Source: Finegoldia magna (GTDB lineage Bacteria > Bacillota > Clostridia > Tissierellales > Peptoniphilaceae). From it: DNA of 64,000 nucleotides. The stretch is taken from NCBI RefSeq assembly GCF_003182075.1, contig NZ_QGTH01000009.1, forward strand, positions 1 through 64,000. Direction: 5' to 3'. A program made the translations under genes and the position numbers. Below the pieces are notes generated by a model that saw only the letters and a list, made by a program, of their open reading frames with translations, ran no database searches and was not told the DNA's origin. Below, piece after piece: positions 13,434-47,551 of the stretch; the stretch's first letter is position 1; the number at the start of each line of letters is the position of its first letter.

Positions 13434-13480
13434 TAGACTATTGATTTAGTTTATTTAAATAAAATTTTATGGGGGTACTT

Positions 13481-29522: not shown

Positions 29523-31682
29523 ATGAAAAAAATAATACGCTTATTGACATTTTTGTTGATTTTTGCTGTGGGGTTAGGATTTTTCTCTTACAAAGATTCA
29601 CGTTTGATGGAGTTTTTTATAAGAGAGTTCGACACTACTGTGAATATAACCACTAATCCACAAAATACTGAAAAAAACATTCTTGAAATTCAAAAAATTG
29701 CTAAGAAAAACAAAATTAGTTTCATAAAAGAAGTTTACAAACCTAAAAACTCATTAAAAGAAAAACAGAAAATAAATATATTTGTTTATCTTGATGATGC
29801 GAGGTGGTTTAAGAAATCATTTAAGAACATTGATATCGATGAAAATTACAACGGAATTAATAGATTCAAAAATGTAACCGAGCACAGCATTTTAACAAGC
29901 AAGGAAGTTGATTTTATTGAATATTCTAAGATTGAAAATCACACTTTTAATGGAGATTATCACATTAAAGGAACGCCTTCTAATATTGGGAAATTTATCG
30001 ACGAATTAAATGGTAGAAAAGAATTGGAAATTGATGCTACAATTGACAAATCTTTTTCGGTTGCTAGTGAAATCACACAAAAACAAGCCATATTATACGC
30101 GATGCTTATTTTAATAATTGTTTTTGCTTTGGCGTTCAGCGTTGTAATTTACAATTCATCACTTTCCAAGGAAATATCTATAATTTCTCTATTGGGTCAC
30201 GATAAATTGAGTTTTTGCTGTAAGAAGGCGATGAATTTGTTGAAAATTCCAATATTGATTTCGCTGATAGGAATGTTTGGCGTTTTGTTTTATTTGACAA
30301 ACCCAGACTCAATAATCAGATTTTTAGTAGCTATCAAACAAATATTCATATTGCTTTTATTAATCGGAATTTTATTGACACTAATGTATTTTCTTATGCT
30401 TTACTTTAGAGTTAAGAATGTTAGCACTATTTCGTGGCTAAAAGGCTACAAGAAAAGATATAAAACAAGTCCTGCGATTTTTAAAGTAATTTCATTGTCT
30501 ATTGTCTTGTATCTTTTAACAGTAACTGTGTTTGGGCTGAATGACTACCTCACTTCTACATCATATTTTGATGCGTGGGAAAAATCGAAGAATTATGCAA
30601 ATGTAGCTTGTGCATGGCCGTGGACTTATGTTCAAAATGATGAAAAATTTGAAGAAATAGTCGCACCAAAGTTAAGTAGTTTGTGGGATGAATTGGATTC
30701 TAAAGGGGCAATACTTTTCTTCGCGCCAAATATTCAATATGAAAATGATGATGAATATTTAAATAAACAGGCTTTTAAAGGTAGGTATGCTTATATTAAC
30801 AAGAATTATGTTGAAATAAACAACTTAGTTGATTCACAAAATAATCCACTGACGACTCATACGCCAAATTCTGATGAATGGATTGTATTTGTTCCCGAAA
30901 ATATTACAATAACGGAATTTGACAAGCAAAATATAAGAAAATCACATATTTTTAATTGCGTGAATCAAAAAGACGATGTCAGTGAGAAATACATCAAAAT
31001 CAAGAAAAAGCAGTATGTTTTTACGTTTGATTGCCAGCAAAATATAATTAGTCCAGATATATTTAATTATGTTTTGGTTATGGTAAATGGCAAAGAATTA
31101 GCACCTACTAGAGAGATTAAAATACCGTCACTGGTTAACGGCAAGTTTCATCCCTACATCCCAAATCCGAATAAGGGCTATGATTATTTAAAACCAGCCA
31201 TTCAAAAAACACAATCATCTGACTATATACTTTTCGTCACGAGCGTATATGACGAAGTCGTTGAAAAAATAGAAATGTATAAAACAGAAACGACCATATA
31301 TTTTTTAGGATTTTTGCTATCGGTTTTAATATTGTTTGTAACGATAAAAATAGATGAAGAATCATATTTTTATAATTATGGACAAAAAATCCACGTCTCC
31401 AGATTGCTTGGGTATGATTTTAAATCTATTCATAAAACTAAAATACTTCAGATTATAGTTGGATTTATCGTAAGTGTTATTATTTGTTATATGATAATAC
31501 TATTCACGATATATTTTAGAAACTTTGAGTTTTTTGAACCAAGAGATGGATGGAGTTTAAGAAAATTATTAATTTGTCTAATAATGTCAATTATTAGTGC
31601 TATTATTTGTTTTATATATGAAATTATTAACGTAAAAAAGAACGAAAAAAGTTTAGTGAGAAAGATAAAGGAAGGTAATTAA
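29523..31682 (+). CDS. Bacteriocin-associated integral membrane protein (DUF1430, lactococcin 972 group)
   Basis: A 719-residue membrane protein with one N-terminal helix, a large extracellular domain (about 25-185), four helices in the middle (about 190-345), a second extracellular domain (about 350-590) and three C-terminal helices. This FtsX-like duplicated layout matches the immunity/export permease of lactococcin 972-type loci (TIGR01654/DUF1430). The ATPase starts one base after its stop. No small bacteriocin gene precedes it. A GGGGGG site lies 5 bases upstream of the start. Confidence 0.72.
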   Translation: MKKIIRLLTFLLIFAVGLGFFSYKDSRLMEFFIREFDTTVNITTNPQNTEKNILEIQKIAKKNKISFIKEVYKPKNSLKEKQKINIFVYLDDARWFKKSFKNIDIDENYNGINRFKNVTEHSILTSKEVDFIEYSKIENHTFNGDYHIKGTPSNIGKFIDELNGRKELEIDATIDKSFSVASEITQKQAILYAMLILIIVFALAFSVVIYNSSLSKEISIISLLGHDKLSFCCKKAMNLLKIPILISLIGMFGVLFYLTNPDSIIRFLVAIKQIFILLLLIGILLTLMYFLMLYFRVKNVSTISWLKGYKKRYKTSPAIFKVISLSIVLYLLTVTVFGLNDYLTSTSYFDAWEKSKNYANVACAWPWTYVQNDEKFEEIVAPKLSSLWDELDSKGAILFFAPNIQYENDDEYLNKQAFKGRYAYINKNYVEINNLVDSQNNPLTTHTPNSDEWIVFVPENITITEFDKQNIRKSHIFNCVNQKDDVSEKYIKIKKKQYVFTFDCQQNIISPDIFNYVLVMVNGKELAPTREIKIPSLVNGKFHPYIPNPNKGYDYLKPAIQKTQSSDYILFVTSVYDEVVEKIEMYKTETTIYFLGFLLSVLILFVTIKIDEESYFYNYGQKIHVSRLLGYDFKSIHKTKILQIIVGFIVSVIICYMIILFTIYFRNFEFFEPRDGWSLRKLLICLIMSIISAIICFIYEIINVKKNEKSLVRKIKEGN

Positions 31683-32366
31683 ATGAATATTGATAAACCT
31701 CAAATATCATTGAAAAATATATCGAAAAAATATGGGAACCATAAAATATTAGAAAATATTAATCTTGACATTTATGAAGGAGATTTTATTTGCATTTTTG
31801 GTAAAAGTGGTGGTGGCAAGACAACGCTATTAAATATAATCGGAACGCTAGAAGAATATGATGAAGGGGAATTGATTTGCTTTTCTAAACATAATCCAAT
31901 TAGAAATGGAAAAGAATCTGAACTTTTACGAAGGTATAAAATAGCATATCTTTTTCAAAACTTTGCTTTAGTTGATAATATGACAGTTCAAGAAAATTTG
32001 AATTTGGCAGTAAAATACAGCAGAAGTACAGATAAAAAATCAATTATAAAAAAAGCTCTTATGAATATGGGAATAGAAGACAAGCTTAAATCAAAAATAT
32101 TTGAATTATCAGGTGGAGAGCAGCAAAGAGTAGCTCTTGCGAGAAATATGATTAAGCCATACGAAATAATGTTAGCAGACGAACCGACAGGATCGTTAGA
32201 TAGTGAAAATAAAAAGATAGTAATTGATACACTTGTAAAACTAAACAAATTGGGTAAAACTATAATTGTAGTAAGCCATGATAAAGAATTTGAAAAAATT
32301 GCACATAAAAATTTTATTATCGAAAACGGCAAACTGAAACAGCTAGAATTTGCTGTGGAGAAATAA
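31683..32366 (+). CDS. ABC exporter ATPase, lactococcin 972 group
   Basis: A 227-residue ATPase of the MacB/LolD type: Walker A GKSGGGKTT, signature LSGGEQQR, Walker B IMLADEPTGSLD and switch His in VSHDKEF. It pairs with the preceding 719-residue permease. Likely exports or expels a peptide; substrate unknown. Confidence 0.85.
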   Translation: MNIDKPQISLKNISKKYGNHKILENINLDIYEGDFICIFGKSGGGKTTLLNIIGTLEEYDEGELICFSKHNPIRNGKESELLRRYKIAYLFQNFALVDNMTVQENLNLAVKYSRSTDKKSIIKKALMNMGIEDKLKSKIFELSGGEQQRVALARNMIKPYEIMLADEPTGSLDSENKKIVIDTLVKLNKLGKTIIVVSHDKEFEKIAHKNFIIENGKLKQLEFAVEK

Positions 32367-35018: not shown

Positions 35019-36110
35019 ATGAAAAAAGTAATGGTGGTTTTTGGGACAAGACCAGAAGCTATTAAAATGTGTCCACTTGTGAAAGAACTCAAAAAAAGAG
35101 ACGAATTCGAAGTTTGTGTACTTGTAACTGGACAACACAAAGAAATGCTACGTCAAGTGTTGGACGTTTTCAAAATCAAAGAAGACTACAACTTGGCTAT
35201 CATGAAAAAAGGACAAAGCTTGTTCGATGTTACCACAACTATTTTGGACAAAATAAAATCTATACTAGAAGAAGAAAAACCAGACATTGTTTTGGTTCAC
35301 GGAGACACTTCGACAAGTTTTGTTGCAGGACTTGCTGCATTTTATTTGAGAATACCAGTAGGTCATGTGGAAGCTGGACTTAGAACTTACAACAAATACT
35401 CTCCATATCCAGAAGAATTCAACAGACAAGCCATAGGATCGTTGGCAGATTTCCACTTCGCACCAACTACAACTGCAAGGGATAATTTGCTACGAGAAAA
35501 CAAAGACGAATCCAAAGTTTTCGTAACGGGAAACACAGTAATAGACGCACTTCAAACAACAGTACGTGACAATTATTCTAACGAAAATTTGATCGAAGGT
35601 AAAAAAATGATTCTTCTAACAATGCACAGAAGGGAAAACTTGGGAGAATCTATGAAAAATTCCTTCAGAGCAATTAAAAGAGTTGTCAACGAAAACGAAG
35701 ATATATATGTGATTTATCCGATACATTTGAATCCAAAAGTACGAGAAATCGCAAACGAAGTATTTGACAATCATCCTAGAATCAAACTCATCGAACCATT
35801 GAATGTAGTTGATTTTCACAACTTCATGAAACAATCATTCTTCGTAATGACAGATTCAGGTGGAATTCAAGAAGAAGCCCCAGCACTTGGTAAGCCCGTT
35901 TTAGTAATGAGAGACACAACAGAAAGACCTGAAGGGGTAGAGGCAGGGACATTAAAATTAACTGGGCTTTGTGAAGAAGACATATACAACGAAATGACAA
36001 AGCTTCTTTCTGACAAAAATGAATACGACAAAATGAGTGAAGCCACAAACCCTTACGGAGATGGGCACGCATCCGAAAGAATCTGTGACATTTTATCCAA
36101 AAATCTATAA
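35019..36110 (+). CDS. wecB: UDP-N-acetylglucosamine 2-epimerase (non-hydrolysing)
   Basis: A 363-residue enzyme interconverting UDP-GlcNAc and UDP-ManNAc. Family motifs: FGTRPEAIKM at the N-terminus, HGDTSTSFVAG and GHVEAGLRT in the middle, and TDSGGIQEEAPALGKP near the end. With wecC it supplies UDP-ManNAcA for a surface glycan. Site AGAGGT. Confidence 0.94.
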   Translation: MKKVMVVFGTRPEAIKMCPLVKELKKRDEFEVCVLVTGQHKEMLRQVLDVFKIKEDYNLAIMKKGQSLFDVTTTILDKIKSILEEEKPDIVLVHGDTSTSFVAGLAAFYLRIPVGHVEAGLRTYNKYSPYPEEFNRQAIGSLADFHFAPTTTARDNLLRENKDESKVFVTGNTVIDALQTTVRDNYSNENLIEGKKMILLTMHRRENLGESMKNSFRAIKRVVNENEDIYVIYPIHLNPKVREIANEVFDNHPRIKLIEPLNVVDFHNFMKQSFFVMTDSGGIQEEAPALGKPVLVMRDTTERPEGVEAGTLKLTGLCEEDIYNEMTKLLSDKNEYDKMSEATNPYGDGHASERICDILSKNL

Positions 36111-36116
36111 ACTAAA

Positions 36117-36145
36117 AAATCCAACTTCATGTAGAAGTTGGATTT
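36117..36145. terminator. Bidirectional terminator between wecB and the peptide operon
   Basis: AAATCCAACTTC pairs with GAAGTTGGATTT (one mismatch-free core). T runs lie on both strands; it can end both wecB and the leftward peptide transcript. Confidence 0.8.
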
Positions 36146-36225
36146 CATATTTAAACGTCAAATAAATTTGATACGTTAACAGATTGGATTTTCTCAATAT
36201 CTTAATCTGGAATTGAATTGTTTAA

Positions 36226-36399
36226 TTAAGCTTGTTTTTTGCTCTTTCTTGATTTTCTTTCAGTATTGAAAAGAGGATTAACTCTTTCGTAGAAGTCATT
36301 CATTTGTGCAAAGTTCATACTTGCCATGTTTGAGCTTAAGCTTACTGTACAGTTTTTACCGAAATTTCTGATTTGTTTTTGTGTTGTTTTTGTGAACAT
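36226..36399 (-). CDS. Tandem cationic peptide C (57 aa), third gene of a peptide array
   Basis: Translates to 57 residues beginning MFTKTTQKQIRNFGKN and ending RKSRKSKKQA. The central core SSNMASMNFAQMNDFYERVN, then PLF, is shared with the two peptides encoded upstream. The single Cys is at residue 17. There is no signal peptide; both ends are basic and the core could form an amphipathic helix. AAGGGGG lies eight bases before the ATG. It is 70 bases after peptide B. Family not recognised; the conserved core in three tandem copies with strong ribosome sites makes it very likely a real gene. Confidence 0.82.
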   Translation of the reverse strand: MFTKTTQKQIRNFGKNCTVSLSSNMASMNFAQMNDFYERVNPLFNTERKSRKSKKQA

Positions 36400-36469
36400 A
36401 TTATTTTCCCCCTTATTAATTGTTTATTATTCTTTTAAGATGTTACTATTTGTTTAATTTGTTTAGTTA

Positions 36470-36619
36470 TTACGCTTGTTTTTTGTTTTTCTTTAATTTT
36501 CTTGAACCAAATAATGGTGTCATTCTTTCGTAAAAGTTATCCGCTTGAGCAAAATTCATGCTCGCCATACTTGTGTTAAAACTAATTTGTGAACTTTTTC
36601 TAATATTATTTTTTCTCAT
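36470..36619 (-). CDS. Tandem cationic peptide B (49 aa), second gene of a peptide array
   Basis: Translates to 49 residues starting MRKNNIRKSSQISFN and ending KLKKNKKQA. The core NTSMASMNFAQADNFYERMT, then PLFGSRK, matches peptides A and C. No Cys and no signal peptide; strongly basic tail. Its GGGGG ribosome site (36628-36632) overlaps the stop codon of peptide A, 12 bases upstream, so the two are translationally coupled. Function unknown. Confidence 0.82.
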   Translation of the reverse strand: MRKNNIRKSSQISFNTSMASMNFAQADNFYERMTPLFGSRKLKKNKKQA

Positions 36620-36631
36620 AAATTTTACCCC

Positions 36632-36796
36632 CTATGCGTTTTTTCTGTTCTTGAAGATTCTTCTTGATCCAAACAATGGAGAGAATCTTTCGTTAAAATG
36701 ATCGACACTTGCGAATGCCATTGATGACATGTTTGTGTTCAAACCAAGAGATGTTTTCTTTGCAAAATCTAAATATTTTCTGTTATTCTTAATCAT
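36632..36796 (-). CDS. Tandem cationic peptide A (54 aa), first gene of a peptide array
   Basis: Translates to 54 residues starting MIKNNRKYLDFAKKTS and ending RIFKNRKNA. Core NTNMSSMAFASVDHFNERFS, then PLFGSRR, is related to peptides B and C but more diverged. Eleven Lys/Arg against three Asp/Glu. GAGGGGG lies eight bases before the ATG. A perfect consensus promoter lies 140 bases upstream, so this is the leader gene of a strongly expressed operon. Possible roles: leaderless bacteriocin, membrane-active peptide, or small nucleic-acid-binding protein; none is shown by the sequence. Confidence 0.82.
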   Translation of the reverse strand: MIKNNRKYLDFAKKTSLGLNTNMSSMAFASVDHFNERFSPLFGSRRIFKNRKNA

Positions 36797-36846
36797 TTCA
36801 GTTCCCCCTCATTTAATATTTATATGTGATTTTCGATTCGTTAATA

Positions 36847-36899
36847 AATGAATATTCAACGAACGAAATTATCGAGTTTAATATTCATTGGATATCCAA
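36847..36899 (-). promoter_or_regulatory. Structured leader of the peptide operon
   Basis: In the 5' leader AATGAATATT (36847-36856) can pair with AATATTCATT (36880-36889), a perfect 10-bp stem with a 23-nt loop. Overlapping it is the perfect 12-bp palindrome TTGGATATCCAA (36888-36899). Either may be an operator or an RNA control element. Confidence 0.5.
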
Positions 36900-36935
36900 A
36901 TGATAATTCATTTCATATCCCTCATTGCAATAAGT

Positions 36936-36964
36936 ATTATATAACCATAAAACAGCTATGTCAA
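36936..36964 (-). promoter_or_regulatory. Consensus promoter of the peptide operon
   Basis: On the minus strand TTGACA (36964-36959), a spacer of exactly 17 and TATAAT (36941-36936). Both hexamers match the sigma-70/SigA consensus perfectly. Confidence 0.85.
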
Positions 36965-37289
36965 GCACTTTTTCAAAGTTTTTTGAAAAATTTTTGTAAA
37001 GAAAAATTAGGAAAACGAATGATTTTTGTGAGTACCGTTTTCACGGAAGGCTTATTTTTATTCGATAAATATTTTTTCAGGAAAACAAATGTTGATATGT
37101 TCAAGTTTTCTAATAAAAATAAATTTTTCCCAGTTACTCAATGTTTTCCTGCAATTTTCCCAAAAGAAAACAGATAGCATTTTAAAAATATGGGAAAATT
37201 TTTTGTGAAGTTGATAATGTATATTGGTGATTGCAAAGAAATTTAGCGAAATAAAGCTGAATTCAATTTTAAAATAATATGATTTTATA
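36965..37289. other. Noncoding AT-rich region between divergent promoters
   Basis: This stretch lies behind the peptide promoter (leftward) and before the promoter at 37290 (rightward). A plus-strand reading frame of 109 codons crosses part of it but has no ribosome site and no protein-like composition. I see no gene here. Confidence 0.5.
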
Positions 37290-37444: not shown

Positions 37445-37597
37445 GTTCCAACTTTTGTAGGATAATCGAAAAGCTGACCAATTCTGATTGTTTTGTAAAA
37501 ATACACCGATGAATCCTTTATTTGAAGATATAGACATAAAGACGCTTGAATGGATAATAGAAATTCATGGAGAGTAAATAGAAGGAGACTGACGAAT

Positions 37598-38425
37598 ATG
37601 AATGAGAGAGTAGTTATTACAGGAGTATGTGGAACTGTTGGCAGAGAACTTTTAAAGTATTACATAGACAAAGATGATTATATTATAGCTGTTGATATTA
37701 ATGAAAATGACATTGCAATCTTGGAAAAAAATATTAAATATGAAAACATTAAATTTATTCCACTCGATATATATGATGAATATACACTAAATATTATCGA
37801 AAAATTAAATCCAACTGCGATCATACATGCAGCTGTACTGAAAAACACTTATTACAACGAAATCTATAATAAGTACTATCATAATAGCAATGTCAGTGGA
37901 ACAATAAAACTTGCCTACAGAATGCTTGATTCGAAATGTTTAAAACGTTTTATTTTTCTTTCCAGTGATGAAGCGTATAATCCAACTAATTTTTTTGGAA
38001 AGGACAAACAAGAAGTTGAGAATATACTAAAAAAAATTACAATTGATGGAAAAGTAATACAATCAGTTAGATTCCCGTTTATAATGCAAAGTAAAGGTTC
38101 AGTTTATAATATTTTTAAGGAACAGGCTAAAAACAATTTACCACTTACGGTAACTGATAAAAATATAAAAAAAATTACAGCTAATTTAAGTAGTTTTATT
38201 TTTACATGGAATGATTTTTACAACAATATATGCGAAAATGGGGTATTTAACTTTGATATTGGAGAGGAAATATCTATATATGAATTAGCTAATGACATAA
38301 TAAAGCAGACTAATTCAAATAGTACGATAAAGATTATTGGGCTAAGAGAAGGAGAGGTCTTAGAAAGAAATATGGTAAAATTAAACGAAAAAGAAGTTTA
38401 TAATAATATTTTTAGAATATATTAA
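37598..38425 (+). CDS. CapD/PseB-like NAD-dependent SDR with altered active site
   Basis: A 275-residue extended short-chain dehydrogenase. The NAD-binding motif is G9-x2-G12-x2-G15. IIHAAVLKN and FLSSDEAYNPTNFFGKDK align with the HAAALKH and STDKAVNPTNxxGATK blocks of UDP-GlcNAc 4,6-dehydratases. Here the Lys of TDK is Glu125 and the position of the catalytic Tyr/Met is Phe133, with K137 kept. The enzyme may be inactive or changed in chemistry. The ATG at 37598 has AGAAGGAGA before it. It lies beyond the wec genes but in its own unit. Confidence 0.7.
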   Translation: MNERVVITGVCGTVGRELLKYYIDKDDYIIAVDINENDIAILEKNIKYENIKFIPLDIYDEYTLNIIEKLNPTAIIHAAVLKNTYYNEIYNKYYHNSNVSGTIKLAYRMLDSKCLKRFIFLSSDEAYNPTNFFGKDKQEVENILKKITIDGKVIQSVRFPFIMQSKGSVYNIFKEQAKNNLPLTVTDKNIKKITANLSSFIFTWNDFYNNICENGVFNFDIGEEISIYELANDIIKQTNSNSTIKIIGLREGEVLERNMVKLNEKEVYNNIFRIY

Positions 38426-38717: not shown

Positions 38718-39749
38718 TTATTTCTTGTCTTCGATGTATTTAATACACAAATCGATAGATGCTTGTAATCCTTCTTGGTGAGTTCTTTCCATTGCGTGTG
38801 ATGCATCAACACCAGGGCCAATCAAAGCAACTCTCAAATTATATCCTGCTTCTAATGCTGCTGATCCGTCTGAACTGTAGAATGGGTAGATGTCAACTGC
38901 GTGAGGAATATTATTTTCTTCACAAATTCTAACTAATCTTTCTTTTAATTCTAAATCGTAAGGACCTGAAGAATCTGCTGCACAAATTGTTGTTTTAAAT
39001 TCAGAAGATGTTTGTCCGTCTCCAGGAGCAGCCATATCAACAACGATGAATTCGTCAGTTTCTTCTGGAATTCCGTAGCATGCACCGTGACCAACTTCTT
39101 CGTAGTTTGAGATGAAGAAGTTAAGAGTGTGTTTTGGAGTGATGTTGTTTTCTACAAAATATCTTGCTGTTTCATATAATACGTATACGCAAGCTTTGTC
39201 GTCTAAGTGTCTTGATTTTACGAATCCACTTTCTGTTAATTGTGTTCTTGAATCTAAATAGATGAAATCACCAACGTTAATTCCAAGTTTTTTTACATCT
39301 TCAGCTGATTCTACCTTTTCGTCGATTCTGATTTCCATTGTCTTGGCATTTCTTTCGTTGCTTTTAGTTTCTGGGCCGTAAACGTGAACTGATTGTTTGT
39401 CGTTTAAGCATGTTCCAGTGTATTTTTTGCCAGACATTGTAGAGATAGTTACGTATTCATTTTCAACAGAGTTGTATGCGTATCCACCTACTAAGAATGT
39501 TTTTAATCTTCCGTTAGGTTTGATTTCTTTAACCATTAATCCCAATGTATCCACGTGAGCTGCAAATGTAGATTGTTTTTCGTCAGTTTCACCACGAAGA
39601 GTAACCACCATTGCACCTTTGTTAGTGAAGTTGATTTCAACTTTTCCTAATTCTTCGAATTTTTTTCTAACTTTTTCCATAACGACTTTAGTGTCGCCAG
39701 ATGGAGAAGAAGTCATTAAAATTTCTTGTAAAAAATCTAAATTTTCCAT
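38718..39749 (-). CDS. M42-family metallopeptidase (glutamyl/deblocking aminopeptidase type)
   Basis: A 343-residue dinuclear-metal aminopeptidase of the cytosol. Metal and catalytic residues appear in AAHVDTLGLM, LDDKACVYV, NYEEVGHGA, VVDMAAPGD and DASHAMERTH. Length is typical for the family, which forms tetrahedral dodecamers and finishes peptide breakdown. Site AGGAGG seven bases before the ATG. Confidence 0.9.
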   Translation of the reverse strand: MENLDFLQEILMTSSPSGDTKVVMEKVRKKFEELGKVEINFTNKGAMVVTLRGETDEKQSTFAAHVDTLGLMVKEIKPNGRLKTFLVGGYAYNSVENEYVTISTMSGKKYTGTCLNDKQSVHVYGPETKSNERNAKTMEIRIDEKVESAEDVKKLGINVGDFIYLDSRTQLTESGFVKSRHLDDKACVYVLYETARYFVENNITPKHTLNFFISNYEEVGHGACYGIPEETDEFIVVDMAAPGDGQTSSEFKTTICAADSSGPYDLELKERLVRICEENNIPHAVDIYPFYSSDGSAALEAGYNLRVALIGPGVDASHAMERTHQEGLQASIDLCIKYIEDKK

Positions 39750-43151: not shown

Positions 43152-45206
43152 ATGAAGAAATTTTCAGAATTTATAGCTAATCATCCTAAGTTAGTGCTTT
43201 TGGTTATGACTTTGTTGTTGATTCCATCAATAATTGGTTACAAGGCAACAAATATCAATTACGATATTTTGTCTTATTTGCCAACTGATTTGAAATCAAC
43301 TCAAGGCCAAACAATTTTGGACAAAGATTTCAAAAATGCAGCTACTGGGATGTTGATTTTAAAGGGCACAGACAACGATGCCGAGAAATTAAGAGAAGAA
43401 GTGCAAAAAATAGACGGGGTTGAGGATGTTATATCTAAGACTTCAATTTTAGGGCCAACTGTTCCTAACGAATTTTTGCCAGATGATATTAGAGATGTGT
43501 TCTATGCCAAAGATAGTACTCTAATGATGGTTAAGTTTAGTGAATCGTCATCTTCAATGAGAACTATGAAGGCGATAGATCAAATCAAACAAATCGAATC
43601 CAAAGAAAAATACTTGAGTGGTATTAGTGCTCTTGTAAAAGACACGAAGGATTTGATAGATAAGGAAACTCCGATTTATGTAATGCTTGCTGTGGCACTT
43701 GGACTTGTGGTGTTGAGCTTGACGAATGAATCGACTGTAATTCCATTCGTATTTATGTTGAATATAGGATATGCTGTTATTTATAATTTTGGGACTAATA
43801 TATTCTTAGGGCAAATATCCTACATTACTAAGGCGATTGCAGCGGTGTTGCAACTTGCCGTAACGATGGATTATTCGATTTTCTTGTATCACAGATATGC
43901 AGCGGAAAAGAAAAAGAGAGACACACATAAGAAGGCAATGGCGAAAGCTATTGAGGCGACATTCTCATCGTTGTTCTCATCTTCACTTACAACTTTTGCA
44001 GGATTCTTGGTTTTGATATTGATGAGATTATCGTTGGGTAAAGATATCGGTCTTGTAATGAGTAAGGGTGTATTCATAGGACTTTTATCTACTTTGGTTG
44101 TTCTTCCACCAATGCTACTTCTTACAGAAAAAGCTGTGGACAAATACAATCACAAAGTATTACTTCCAGAATTTACAAAATTACCAAACTTCGTCGTAGA
44201 CAAGAGAAAAGTGTTGGCATTAGTATTTGTAGTGTTATTTATTCCAGCAATTTATGGATCTGTAAACACAAAATTATACTACAACTTGGATAGATCATTG
44301 CCACAAGATTTGGACTCCATTGTATCTCTTAATAAAATGAAGAAAGACTACAATATGGCAAGTACTCATTTTATCGTTGTAAAAGATAATTTATCTAATA
44401 CTGCTATGGATTCTATGATTGATGAGTTAGAACACATCGACGGTATCAATTCGGTTGTCGGAACGAATTCAATCACAGGTGTTACAATTCCTGCGACATT
44501 CTTGCCAGACAAACTCAGAGATAACTTCGTAAAAAACGGCTACGAAATGCTTATGGTTAATTCAGAATACCAAACAGCATCTGATAAAGTGAACAAACAA
44601 ATCACACAAATGCGTGATGTAATAGCAAAACACGACAAGGACGGATATTTGACAGGTGAAGCTGTTCTTACAGACGATTTGACAGATATTTCCGATCAAG
44701 ACTTCAAGATGGTTAACATAGCATCATTAATTGCAGTATTCATAATCATCGCAATATCGTTCAAATCATTTGGAATTCCAGTTGTATTGATAGCAGCCAT
44801 AGAACTTGCTATTCAAATCAACATGGCAATCCCATTCTACTTCAATCAAACAATTCCGTTTATCACATCAATCGTAATCGGCGTAATTCAATTAGGATCT
44901 ACGATAGATTATTCTATATTAATGACGGACAGATTCTTGTTCGAATATCGAAAGACTAAAGATGTAAATGGTTCGTTGAAAACATCGGTAAGAGAAACAT
45001 CCAAATCAATTGTTACAAGTGCCTTATCATTCATGGCAGCGACAGTTGGTGTAGGAATTTATTCAAAAATGGAAATAGTATCCACAATATGTACGTTATT
45101 GGCTAGGGGAGCAATCATCAGTATGCTTGTAATCATAATATTACTTCCAGCAGTATTGAGCATTACATTCCCATTTATCAAGAAAACAACTAAAAATTTA
45201 GCGTAA
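43152..45206 (+). CDS. MMPL/RND-family transporter
   Basis: A 684-residue RND-superfamily protein with two repeats, each one helix, an external domain and a five-helix bundle: 12 spans in all. The conserved TMDYSIFLYHRY (near 242) and STIDYSILMTDR (near 581) carry the Asp-Tyr proton-relay pairs of MMPL proteins. It is 13 bases after the regulator and 11 before the heptad-repeat protein. It likely exports a lipid, amphiphile or drug. Confidence 0.87.
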   Translation: MKKFSEFIANHPKLVLLVMTLLLIPSIIGYKATNINYDILSYLPTDLKSTQGQTILDKDFKNAATGMLILKGTDNDAEKLREEVQKIDGVEDVISKTSILGPTVPNEFLPDDIRDVFYAKDSTLMMVKFSESSSSMRTMKAIDQIKQIESKEKYLSGISALVKDTKDLIDKETPIYVMLAVALGLVVLSLTNESTVIPFVFMLNIGYAVIYNFGTNIFLGQISYITKAIAAVLQLAVTMDYSIFLYHRYAAEKKKRDTHKKAMAKAIEATFSSLFSSSLTTFAGFLVLILMRLSLGKDIGLVMSKGVFIGLLSTLVVLPPMLLLTEKAVDKYNHKVLLPEFTKLPNFVVDKRKVLALVFVVLFIPAIYGSVNTKLYYNLDRSLPQDLDSIVSLNKMKKDYNMASTHFIVVKDNLSNTAMDSMIDELEHIDGINSVVGTNSITGVTIPATFLPDKLRDNFVKNGYEMLMVNSEYQTASDKVNKQITQMRDVIAKHDKDGYLTGEAVLTDDLTDISDQDFKMVNIASLIAVFIIIAISFKSFGIPVVLIAAIELAIQINMAIPFYFNQTIPFITSIVIGVIQLGSTIDYSILMTDRFLFEYRKTKDVNGSLKTSVRETSKSIVTSALSFMAATVGVGIYSKMEIVSTICTLLARGAIISMLVIIILLPAVLSITFPFIKKTTKNLA

Positions 45207-45217
45207 AGGAGAACACT

Positions 45218-47551
45218 ATGAAGAAAAATATTGAAAAAATCTTAGCCTTGTCATTGGTATCTTCAATGACATTTGCTAACCTATCATTTGCAGAACAACA
45301 AGATTTAATCAAAAAATCAGAAACTGTTTATGTAACAGTAGAAGGTAACGAAATCAAAGACAAATCAGTTTCTGTGTGGTTAAATTCAGATAAAAATATA
45401 AAAGCAAACGACAAATCTAATTTGACAAATGTAAAAGATTTGAAAACAGATAAGGAACTAAAATCTGAAAACGGATATTTGAAATTAGATGAAAACAAAA
45501 AAGACATCTACTACAAAGGTGACACAGACAAAAAACTTCCAGTAGATGTATCTGTAAAATACTTCTTAGATGGAAAAGAAATGAAAGCTTCTGAATTAGA
45601 AGGGAAATCTGGTCATTTGAAGATTGTAATCACTTCTAAAAACAACAGATACGAAGCCAAAACAATTGACGGACAATCAAGAAATGTATATTCACCATAT
45701 GTCGTTGTAGCGGCGATGACATTTGACGATGAAAAAGTAGAAAACGTCACATCAGATGATATCAAAGTTGTAAAAGACGGAAAGAACGAAATAGTAACTA
45801 CAGTTATGACACCAGGTATGAAACAAAACTTGAGTAAAATTGTAGAAGACAAAGAATTGGATAATTTCAAGGACGAAGTTTCAGTTGAAATGGACATCAA
45901 AGATTACAAACCAGTAGAAATCTATTCTGTAATCACTAACGAATTCTTCCAAGAAAAGAAAAACATCGACTCATTGGATAAGCTTCAAAACGGTGTTAAA
46001 GAATTACAAGATAATTCACAAAAACTTGTAGATGCATCAGTAAAATTATCTGAAGGACAAGACAAACTAAACTCAGGAATTTCACAAATGCAAACAGGAG
46101 TTACAAAACTTCACTCAGGTTCACAAAAACTTGCATCATCAACACAACAAATGCAAGGCAAATTCTCAGGAATACAAGGGAAAGTAGGTCCTATCCAAGG
46201 ATATGTAGCTCAAATGAATGACGGTAGCTTGAAATTGTACAATGGAATTTCAGATTACACAGCTGCAGTTGGAAAAATCAAAGAAAACACAGCTAAAATC
46301 AAAGAAGGCTCCGAAAAATTAGCCAAAGGTGCGACTGATTTGGACAATGGAGTTGGCAAATTAAAAGATGCGACTTCACAATTAAGAGCTGGAACTGAAA
46401 ATATGAAAGAAATGACTGCGCAAAAAGACCAATTGCTTGAAAAATCATCACAATTATCAAACGGATTGAATGGTTTGGCAGGAAGCTATGGTCAATTAGC
46501 AGATACAGTTGAACAAATTTCAGGAAAATCTCAACAATTAAAAGATTCAAGCGCACAATTCAACGAAAAATTACAAAAAGTAGCACAACTTGCAGGTGGT
46601 GCTGAGACAAGTGCAAGTGCAGAAAAAATCGCACGTGGACTTGAAAGCTCAGCTGAAGGATTGAACAATGCAATCCAACAATTACAAGCAAAGAATGAAG
46701 AAGGACAACTAAACGATACAATTGCATATCTTCAAGCACAAAAAAATGTAATGTACGTTCAAGCAGAATCCATCAGAAATGCTGGTTCACAAAATGCTGG
46801 GCAACAAAAACTACAAGCAGCATTGGCACAATTAGCTCAAAGTTCAAGTGCATTATCACAAGGAAACGCTGATTTATCCAATGCACTTATGAGAACATCA
46901 GCTGCTATGAATCAATCAAAAGCAAAACTTGTAGATTCTTCTAACCAATTATCTCAAGGATTGGGACAAATGGGTGGCGCATTGAATGGCGCAGATGGAT
47001 TATCAACATTGAAGGATTCCATCGACAAACTTGACGATGCAACAGGTCAAATCAAAGGTGGATCACAAACATTAAAAGAAGGAACATTGCAAAACGAAAA
47101 AGCAATGGCAATGCTTTTAAATGGAATGGAAGAATTGGATAAGAATTCAAGTGCGTTAGTTGAAGGCTCATCAAAATTATCTGGTGGATTACAAGAATTC
47201 AACAAACAATCAGCTCTTTTATCTTCATTGTCACAAATCAATGAAAAAGCCATCATTCCAATGAGTAATGCAATCAATATGTTAAACGATGGACTTGGAA
47301 AATTGGATTCATCAACTGGACAATTAAAATCAGGTAGTGATGAGCTTGCTTCTGGACAAAAAGAATTCAGCTCCAAACTAAAAGAATACAAAGAAAAAGG
47401 AATTGATGAATTATCCAACAAGACAAAAGATTTAAATAAATTCAAAGACATCATCGATGCTATGAGTGATTTGGCAGTTAAAGATTCTTCATTCACAGGA
47501 ACGGACAATAATTTTGAAACAAAATCAAGAATTGTTGAAAAAATAAAATAG
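45218..47551 (+). CDS. Secreted heptad-repeat (YhgE/X-X-X-L-X-X-G type) protein
   Basis: A 777-residue exported protein. The signal peptide ends near LSFA-E (residue 25). A beta-rich domain (about 30-240) precedes a very long coiled coil (about 245-730) with L-x-x-G/S heptads such as KLSEGQDKLNSGISQ. Unlike YhgE/Pip proteins it shows no membrane helices at the C-terminus, so it should be free or bound to the MMPL pump. As third gene of the TetR-MMPL operon it may be an extracytoplasmic adaptor spanning the wall. This role is inference. Confidence 0.78.
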   Translation: MKKNIEKILALSLVSSMTFANLSFAEQQDLIKKSETVYVTVEGNEIKDKSVSVWLNSDKNIKANDKSNLTNVKDLKTDKELKSENGYLKLDENKKDIYYKGDTDKKLPVDVSVKYFLDGKEMKASELEGKSGHLKIVITSKNNRYEAKTIDGQSRNVYSPYVVVAAMTFDDEKVENVTSDDIKVVKDGKNEIVTTVMTPGMKQNLSKIVEDKELDNFKDEVSVEMDIKDYKPVEIYSVITNEFFQEKKNIDSLDKLQNGVKELQDNSQKLVDASVKLSEGQDKLNSGISQMQTGVTKLHSGSQKLASSTQQMQGKFSGIQGKVGPIQGYVAQMNDGSLKLYNGISDYTAAVGKIKENTAKIKEGSEKLAKGATDLDNGVGKLKDATSQLRAGTENMKEMTAQKDQLLEKSSQLSNGLNGLAGSYGQLADTVEQISGKSQQLKDSSAQFNEKLQKVAQLAGGAETSASAEKIARGLESSAEGLNNAIQQLQAKNEEGQLNDTIAYLQAQKNVMYVQAESIRNAGSQNAGQQKLQAALAQLAQSSSALSQGNADLSNALMRTSAAMNQSKAKLVDSSNQLSQGLGQMGGALNGADGLSTLKDSIDKLDDATGQIKGGSQTLKEGTLQNEKAMAMLLNGMEELDKNSSALVEGSSKLSGGLQEFNKQSALLSSLSQINEKAIIPMSNAINMLNDGLGKLDSSTGQLKSGSDELASGQKEFSSKLKEYKEKGIDELSNKTKDLNKFKDIIDAMSDLAVKDSSFTGTDNNFETKSRIVEKIK

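Follow-up and report, generated by a model that had tools for sequence, protein, structure and literature searches.

A conserved array of three small basic proteins in Finegoldia magna with a promoter of the rRNA and ribosomal-protein type

Several families of short, cationic, leaderless peptides are known, among them the bacteriocins aureocin A70, garvicin KS, enterocin L50/7 and the aureocin A53-like members of PF11758. In the multi-peptide types, the genes lie in tandem and the peptides are related to one another. Members of the LsbB/enterocin K1 group are also short and leaderless, possibly forming one helix with a loose C-terminus. Beyond killing, tandem short leaderless peptides in other Gram-positives act on the host or as signals. 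Adjacent genes for secretion and immunity have been confirmed for only some of the known leaderless bacteriocins (PMC6131525).

We analyzed a 64,000-nucleotide stretch of the Finegoldia magna genome (the window), in which three adjacent minus-strand ORFs had been predicted to encode related cationic peptides of a new kind. The ORFs were re-found exactly as predicted: gene 1 (36632..36796) encodes 54 residues with a net charge of +8, gene 2 (36470..36619) encodes 49 residues with a net charge of +9, and gene 3 (36226..36399) encodes 57 residues with a net charge of +8. Alignment of the peptides along their length gave 17 invariant columns and confirmed both a common core, NM[AS]SMxFA....FxER..PLF, and the basic C-terminus that had been claimed. 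The core is flanked by basic ends, such that the first third of each peptide carries about +4, the middle third -1 to -2, and the last third +6. All three peptides lack a hydrophobic segment and Trp, and their GRAVY scores range from -0.66 to -1.03. The predicted strong ribosome sites were also present. The GGGGG of gene 2 starts at the stop codon of gene 1 (TAGGGGG), and anti-SD pairing of the array sites (-10.2 to -10.7 kcal/mol) falls in the range of the window's ribosomal-protein genes. When we scanned for resembling adjacent small ORFs with a ribosome site, the array alone scored above 53 points in the window (scores 92-124), and the same scan over 1.95 Mb of a related genome (G084; 996 candidates) returned only CRISPR artefacts; chance similarity of the three peptides is, therefore, no serious option. 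One claim did not hold, namely that the genes are below gene-calling length limits. The usual minimum of gene callers is 30 codons, which genes of 49-57 codons exceed, so they may be annotated as hypothetical proteins.

Finegoldia has been described as two clades at 90.7% ANI (PMC5762925). Our comparison within the genus covered two genomes, this one and a sister species (G054). Broken frames in relatives had been named as evidence against the prediction; in the sister species, all three frames were unbroken and sat at the corresponding locus, with wecB on one side and an M42 peptidase gene on the other. The arrays of the two species differ by 6 synonymous and 6 nonsynonymous changes, which gives a between-species dN/dS of 0.21 (dN<dS, p 0.01), a value resting on 12 differences because only two genomes of the genus were compared. 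The amino acid replacements are all conservative: K to R accounts for three, and M to I, T to S and A to T for one each. Synonymous divergence (pS) was 0.070 for the array, 0.062 for the 14 ribosomal-protein genes in the window and 0.249 for the other neighbors (array versus other neighbors, Fisher p 4e-5). For dN/dS, the ribosomal-protein genes gave 0.13, somewhat below the array. Conservation follows the frames, since the spacer between genes 2 and 3 carries a 20-nt deletion in the sister species and the leader differs at 14 of 124 aligned columns. The pattern of differences indicates that the three ORFs are real genes under purifying selection.

Codon usage was assessed by CAI, with the ribosomal-protein genes as the reference set. 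The three genes scored 0.74, 0.75 and 0.80, within the ribosomal-protein range of 0.71-0.81. Most other genes in the window scored 0.44-0.71, the exceptions being the M42 gene (0.81) and a substrate-binding protein gene at 13469 (0.77). The same peptides written with simulated background codons reached 0.58-0.61 (one-sided fractions 0.03, 0.06 and 0.015). Codon bias and ribosome sites together predict that the array is highly expressed.

The promoter claimed for the array was confirmed as a perfect consensus, TTGACA-17-TATAAT without mismatch (36936..36964, minus strand), and its -35 and -10 boxes are identical in the sister species. Such promoters are not unique to the array: the genome has 31, against 2 matches to the reversed pattern. 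When the promoter and leader were used as a genome query, a second locus emerged, C2:112701 (75% over ~90 bases), which drew attention to the AT-rich sequence preceding the -35 box. That second locus has an AT-rich pre-promoter element of a similar kind, followed by a long region (L189:1499-2800, G000:C2:112701 onward) that lacks clear genes, contains repeated segments and gave no Rfam or tRNA match. At the array, the stretch directly before the -35 box is an AT-rich UP-like element, TTTTTCAAAAAACTTTGAAAAAGTGC (36965..36995, minus strand), identical in the sister species and of the same type as in the rRNA, S10 and L10-L7/L12 operon promoters.

The element pattern AAAARGTS(N)TTGACA occurred at six sites in the 2.02-Mb genome and its reversed control at 0, a match that is partly by construction because the pattern was set after the array, the S10 site and the rRNA promoters of the sister species had been seen (and GTC was admitted after one rRNA promoter was seen), while the L10-L7/L12 site had no part in setting it. 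Two sites belong to rRNA operons at contig ends, assigned by alignment to the 16S-bearing loci of the sister species, whose rRNA promoters carry the same type of element. Three further sites precede the S10 operon, the L10-L7/L12 operon (which has an Rfam L10 leader) and the peptide array. The sixth (G000:C1:185417, L199) lies ahead of a putative membrane protein, and both its -10 box and its spacing are poorer. Among the promoters of this type that we found, that of the array is therefore the sole well-formed one outside the translation apparatus. Judged by promoter element, codon bias and synonymous constraint, the array belongs to the expression class of the translation apparatus.

The leader had been claimed to be structured, and this was borne out in part. 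Hairpin 1 (GGATAT...ATATCC; 36892..36922, minus strand) is possible in either species; between them, one G-C pair becomes G-U and one closing pair is lost. In hairpin 2 (36828..36873, minus strand; 16 pairs counted), the species differ by five substitutions in the stem, yet every pair is kept, two of them through a change of both partners (T-A to G-C and G-C to T-G). When five substitutions were placed at random, all pairs survived in ~0.15% of trials. The covariation suggests that this long stem is held by compensatory change, and is only suggestive because the structure was derived from the same sequences and from one species pair. The remaining parts of the claim fared less well: the whole leader showed no extra folding stability relative to shuffles (z -0.18), and the sister species lacks the 12-bp palindrome TTGGATATCCAA but retains the hairpin in which it lies. 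Rfam searches of the array and leader gave no match beyond a sub-threshold sRNA match (E 0.15) over the terminator.

That terminator-like hairpin with a T run (36116..36146, minus strand) separates the array from a convergent UDP-GlcNAc 2-epimerase (wecB-like) gene (35019-36110). The stem of the hairpin is conserved in the sister species. On the other flank is a PseB/capsule-type sugar-nucleotide enzyme gene (37550-38425), followed by the M42 aminopeptidase gene (38718-39749), whose CAI is as high as those of ribosomal proteins. The PseB-type gene is missing from the locus in the sister species, where the M42 gene adjoins the array; it was, therefore, gained or lost between the two species. 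In agreement with the original prediction of no dedicated exporter beside the array, the neighbors are sugar-nucleotide enzymes and the M42 peptidase, and no exporter or immunity gene adjoins it. The nearest candidate exporter that had been pointed out is a lactococcin-type ABC pair at 29.5-32.4 kb (29523-32366), ~4 kb from the array end. It does resemble a lactococcin-972-type permease and ABC ATPase (TIGR01654, TIGR03608), but both matches are below the curated cut-offs. The pair lies beside a Pst phosphate transporter and a two-component system and is also present in the sister species; we found no link between it and the array. Elsewhere in the window, 43152-47551 holds an MMPL-family transporter gene and, after it, a gene for a coiled-coil protein of 777 aa that carries X-X-X-Leu-X-X-Gly repeats; a TetR regulator precedes them. 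Upstream repeats of GTTTTCCTG number 3 in the window, versus 0.75 expected.

We searched widely for relatives of the peptides. Pfam (at E<=1), NCBIfam, PHROGs and the PDB gave no match, and no ribosomal-protein profile in Pfam or NCBIfam matched the peptides at E<=1. Profile searches of 130 family, 249 order and 391 class genomes, which are overlapping samples, gave real matches in the genus only. Weak profile matches arose in other genera (E 0.002-0.09); those inspected were antisense, stop-interrupted or partial frames without a tandem layout and were rejected as chance. No relatives of the array were found in GTDB contigs (two scans), IMG/VR (one scan), or phages and plasmids (tblastn), collections that may omit near relatives of the window. 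Within the family, no small-ORF array stood beside M42 or wecB relatives, and our search of the literature on Finegoldia turned up neither a paper about small ORFs nor a relevant study of small proteins. AF2 modeled the peptides as one helix ending in a loose tail (mean pLDDT 62) or as a helical hairpin (pLDDT 66, core about 73-84). These low-confidence models gave no structural match in a fold search, and we make no structural claim because of their low confidence and the lack of a fold match. Taken together, the database and genome searches agree with the original prediction of an unrecognized family, and the peptides appear to form a new orphan family that is so far confined to the genus.

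Could the array encode a multi-peptide leaderless bacteriocin, whose peptides exit without a signal peptide and attack the membranes of competitors? Its tandem, related, cationic and leaderless peptides of 49-57 residues are as in known multi-peptide types (PMC6131525), the lactococcin-972-like ABC pair is nearby, and the single-helix AF2 model would also be in keeping. However, the peptides are hydrophilic and Trp-free, and their maximal helical moments were not above those of shuffles (fractions 0.64, 0.82 and 0.17), whereas aureocin A53 and lacticin Q as controls gave 0.006 and 0.036. The same controls matched PF11758 at 96-98 bits (E 1e-27 and 2e-28, respectively), and the array peptides had no Pfam match at E<=1. 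The aureocin A53 control sequence matched 2n8o over its full length and also retrieved lacticin Q as 2n8p. The KxxxGxxPWE motif of the LsbB type is absent from all three peptides, and no immunity or exporter gene adjoins them. Moreover, the array is near-invariant between species, and conservation at this housekeeping level speaks against an arms-race product. These observations weaken the earlier proposals of a leaderless bacteriocin, which we now consider very unlikely, and of membrane-active peptides. The same lack of amphipathicity bears on a further reading, in which the peptides are secreted through an unlinked transporter and act on the host or as signals, roles for which precedents exist in other Gram-positives. 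With no hydrophobic segment usable as a secretion signal, no dedicated exporter and housekeeping-like conservation, this appears to us the least probable account of all.

Two other accounts have to be weighed. The unit might act mainly as an RNA, through its structured leader and an abundant transcript, with the peptides secondary. The compensatory changes in hairpin 2 and the strong conservation of synonymous sites point in this direction. However, synonymous conservation in the array equals that of the ribosomal-protein genes, so no extra RNA constraint is needed. Three separate ORFs are retained with strong ribosome sites, their amino acid changes are conservative, the spacer lost its 20 nt with the frames intact, and Rfam offers no match; we regard this account as highly improbable. 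Alternatively, the peptides might be nucleoid-associated, DNA-compacting small proteins expressed with growth like ribosome genes. Basic ends, signals of abundance and the lack of a membrane segment fit this account as well as they fit our preferred one below, and the sole Foldseek row was a chromatin protein, at chance level (E 8.2, probability 0.07). Nevertheless, no DNA-binding fold or family matched, and the promoter class indicates translation rather than DNA. DNA association is the main rival and, in our view, unlikely; the promoter class favors putative association with RNA or the ribosome. Positive charge alone does not show RNA binding.

We favor, with close to an even chance, a reading of the array as one unit encoding orphan, genus-restricted, abundant and basic cytoplasmic miniproteins that are growth-coupled and likely RNA- or ribosome-associated. 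The original prediction had listed an abundant small RNA- or DNA-binding family among its ideas, and promoter class and codon bias favor this one, the binding itself being putative. The three genes would form a single transcription unit, and a promoter of the rRNA and ribosomal-protein class would couple synthesis to growth. The basic tails may bind RNA or the ribosome (or the nucleoid), the NM[AS]SMxFA...FxER..PLF core may be the part that folds or binds a partner, and three copies may supply dosage. The leader hairpin could conceivably stabilize the mRNA or serve autoregulation. The miniproteins are predicted to be abundant and cytoplasmic, and are probably helpers of growing cells, since this promoter type is otherwise used for ribosome genes. 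A more specific version, in which they are a genus-specific accessory set of ribosome or RNA metabolism made in ribosome-like amounts from the rRNA-class promoter, with possible leader autoregulation, is quite unlikely.

The simplest account of these sequence data replaces the antimicrobial reading with one of basic, growth-coupled proteins that belong to the translation expression class. If this is true, a human-associated anaerobe produces three family-less proteins, found only in its genus, in large amounts and under the transcriptional logic of the ribosome. Abundant lineage-restricted small proteins of this class are rarely recognized because annotation by homology finds no family to attach them to. 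Through its promoter class and leader covariation, an anonymous small-ORF cluster becomes precisely testable, with growth-phase transcription and association with ribosomes or RNA as the predictions.

Compared with the leaderless bacteriocins, the array peptides are hydrophilic, Trp-free and non-amphipathic, have no PF11758 match and no export or immunity neighbors, and are conserved at the level of ribosomal proteins. Unlike the LsbB/enterocin K1 group, they lack KxxxGxxPWE and have a strongly basic tail. They differ from core ribosomal proteins in matching no ribosomal family and in being limited to one genus. Nonetheless, ribosomal-protein operons share codon bias and synonymous constraint with the array, and the S10, L10-L7/L12 and rrn operons of the same genome share its AAAARGTS(N)TTGACA element, with L10 having a structured leader too.
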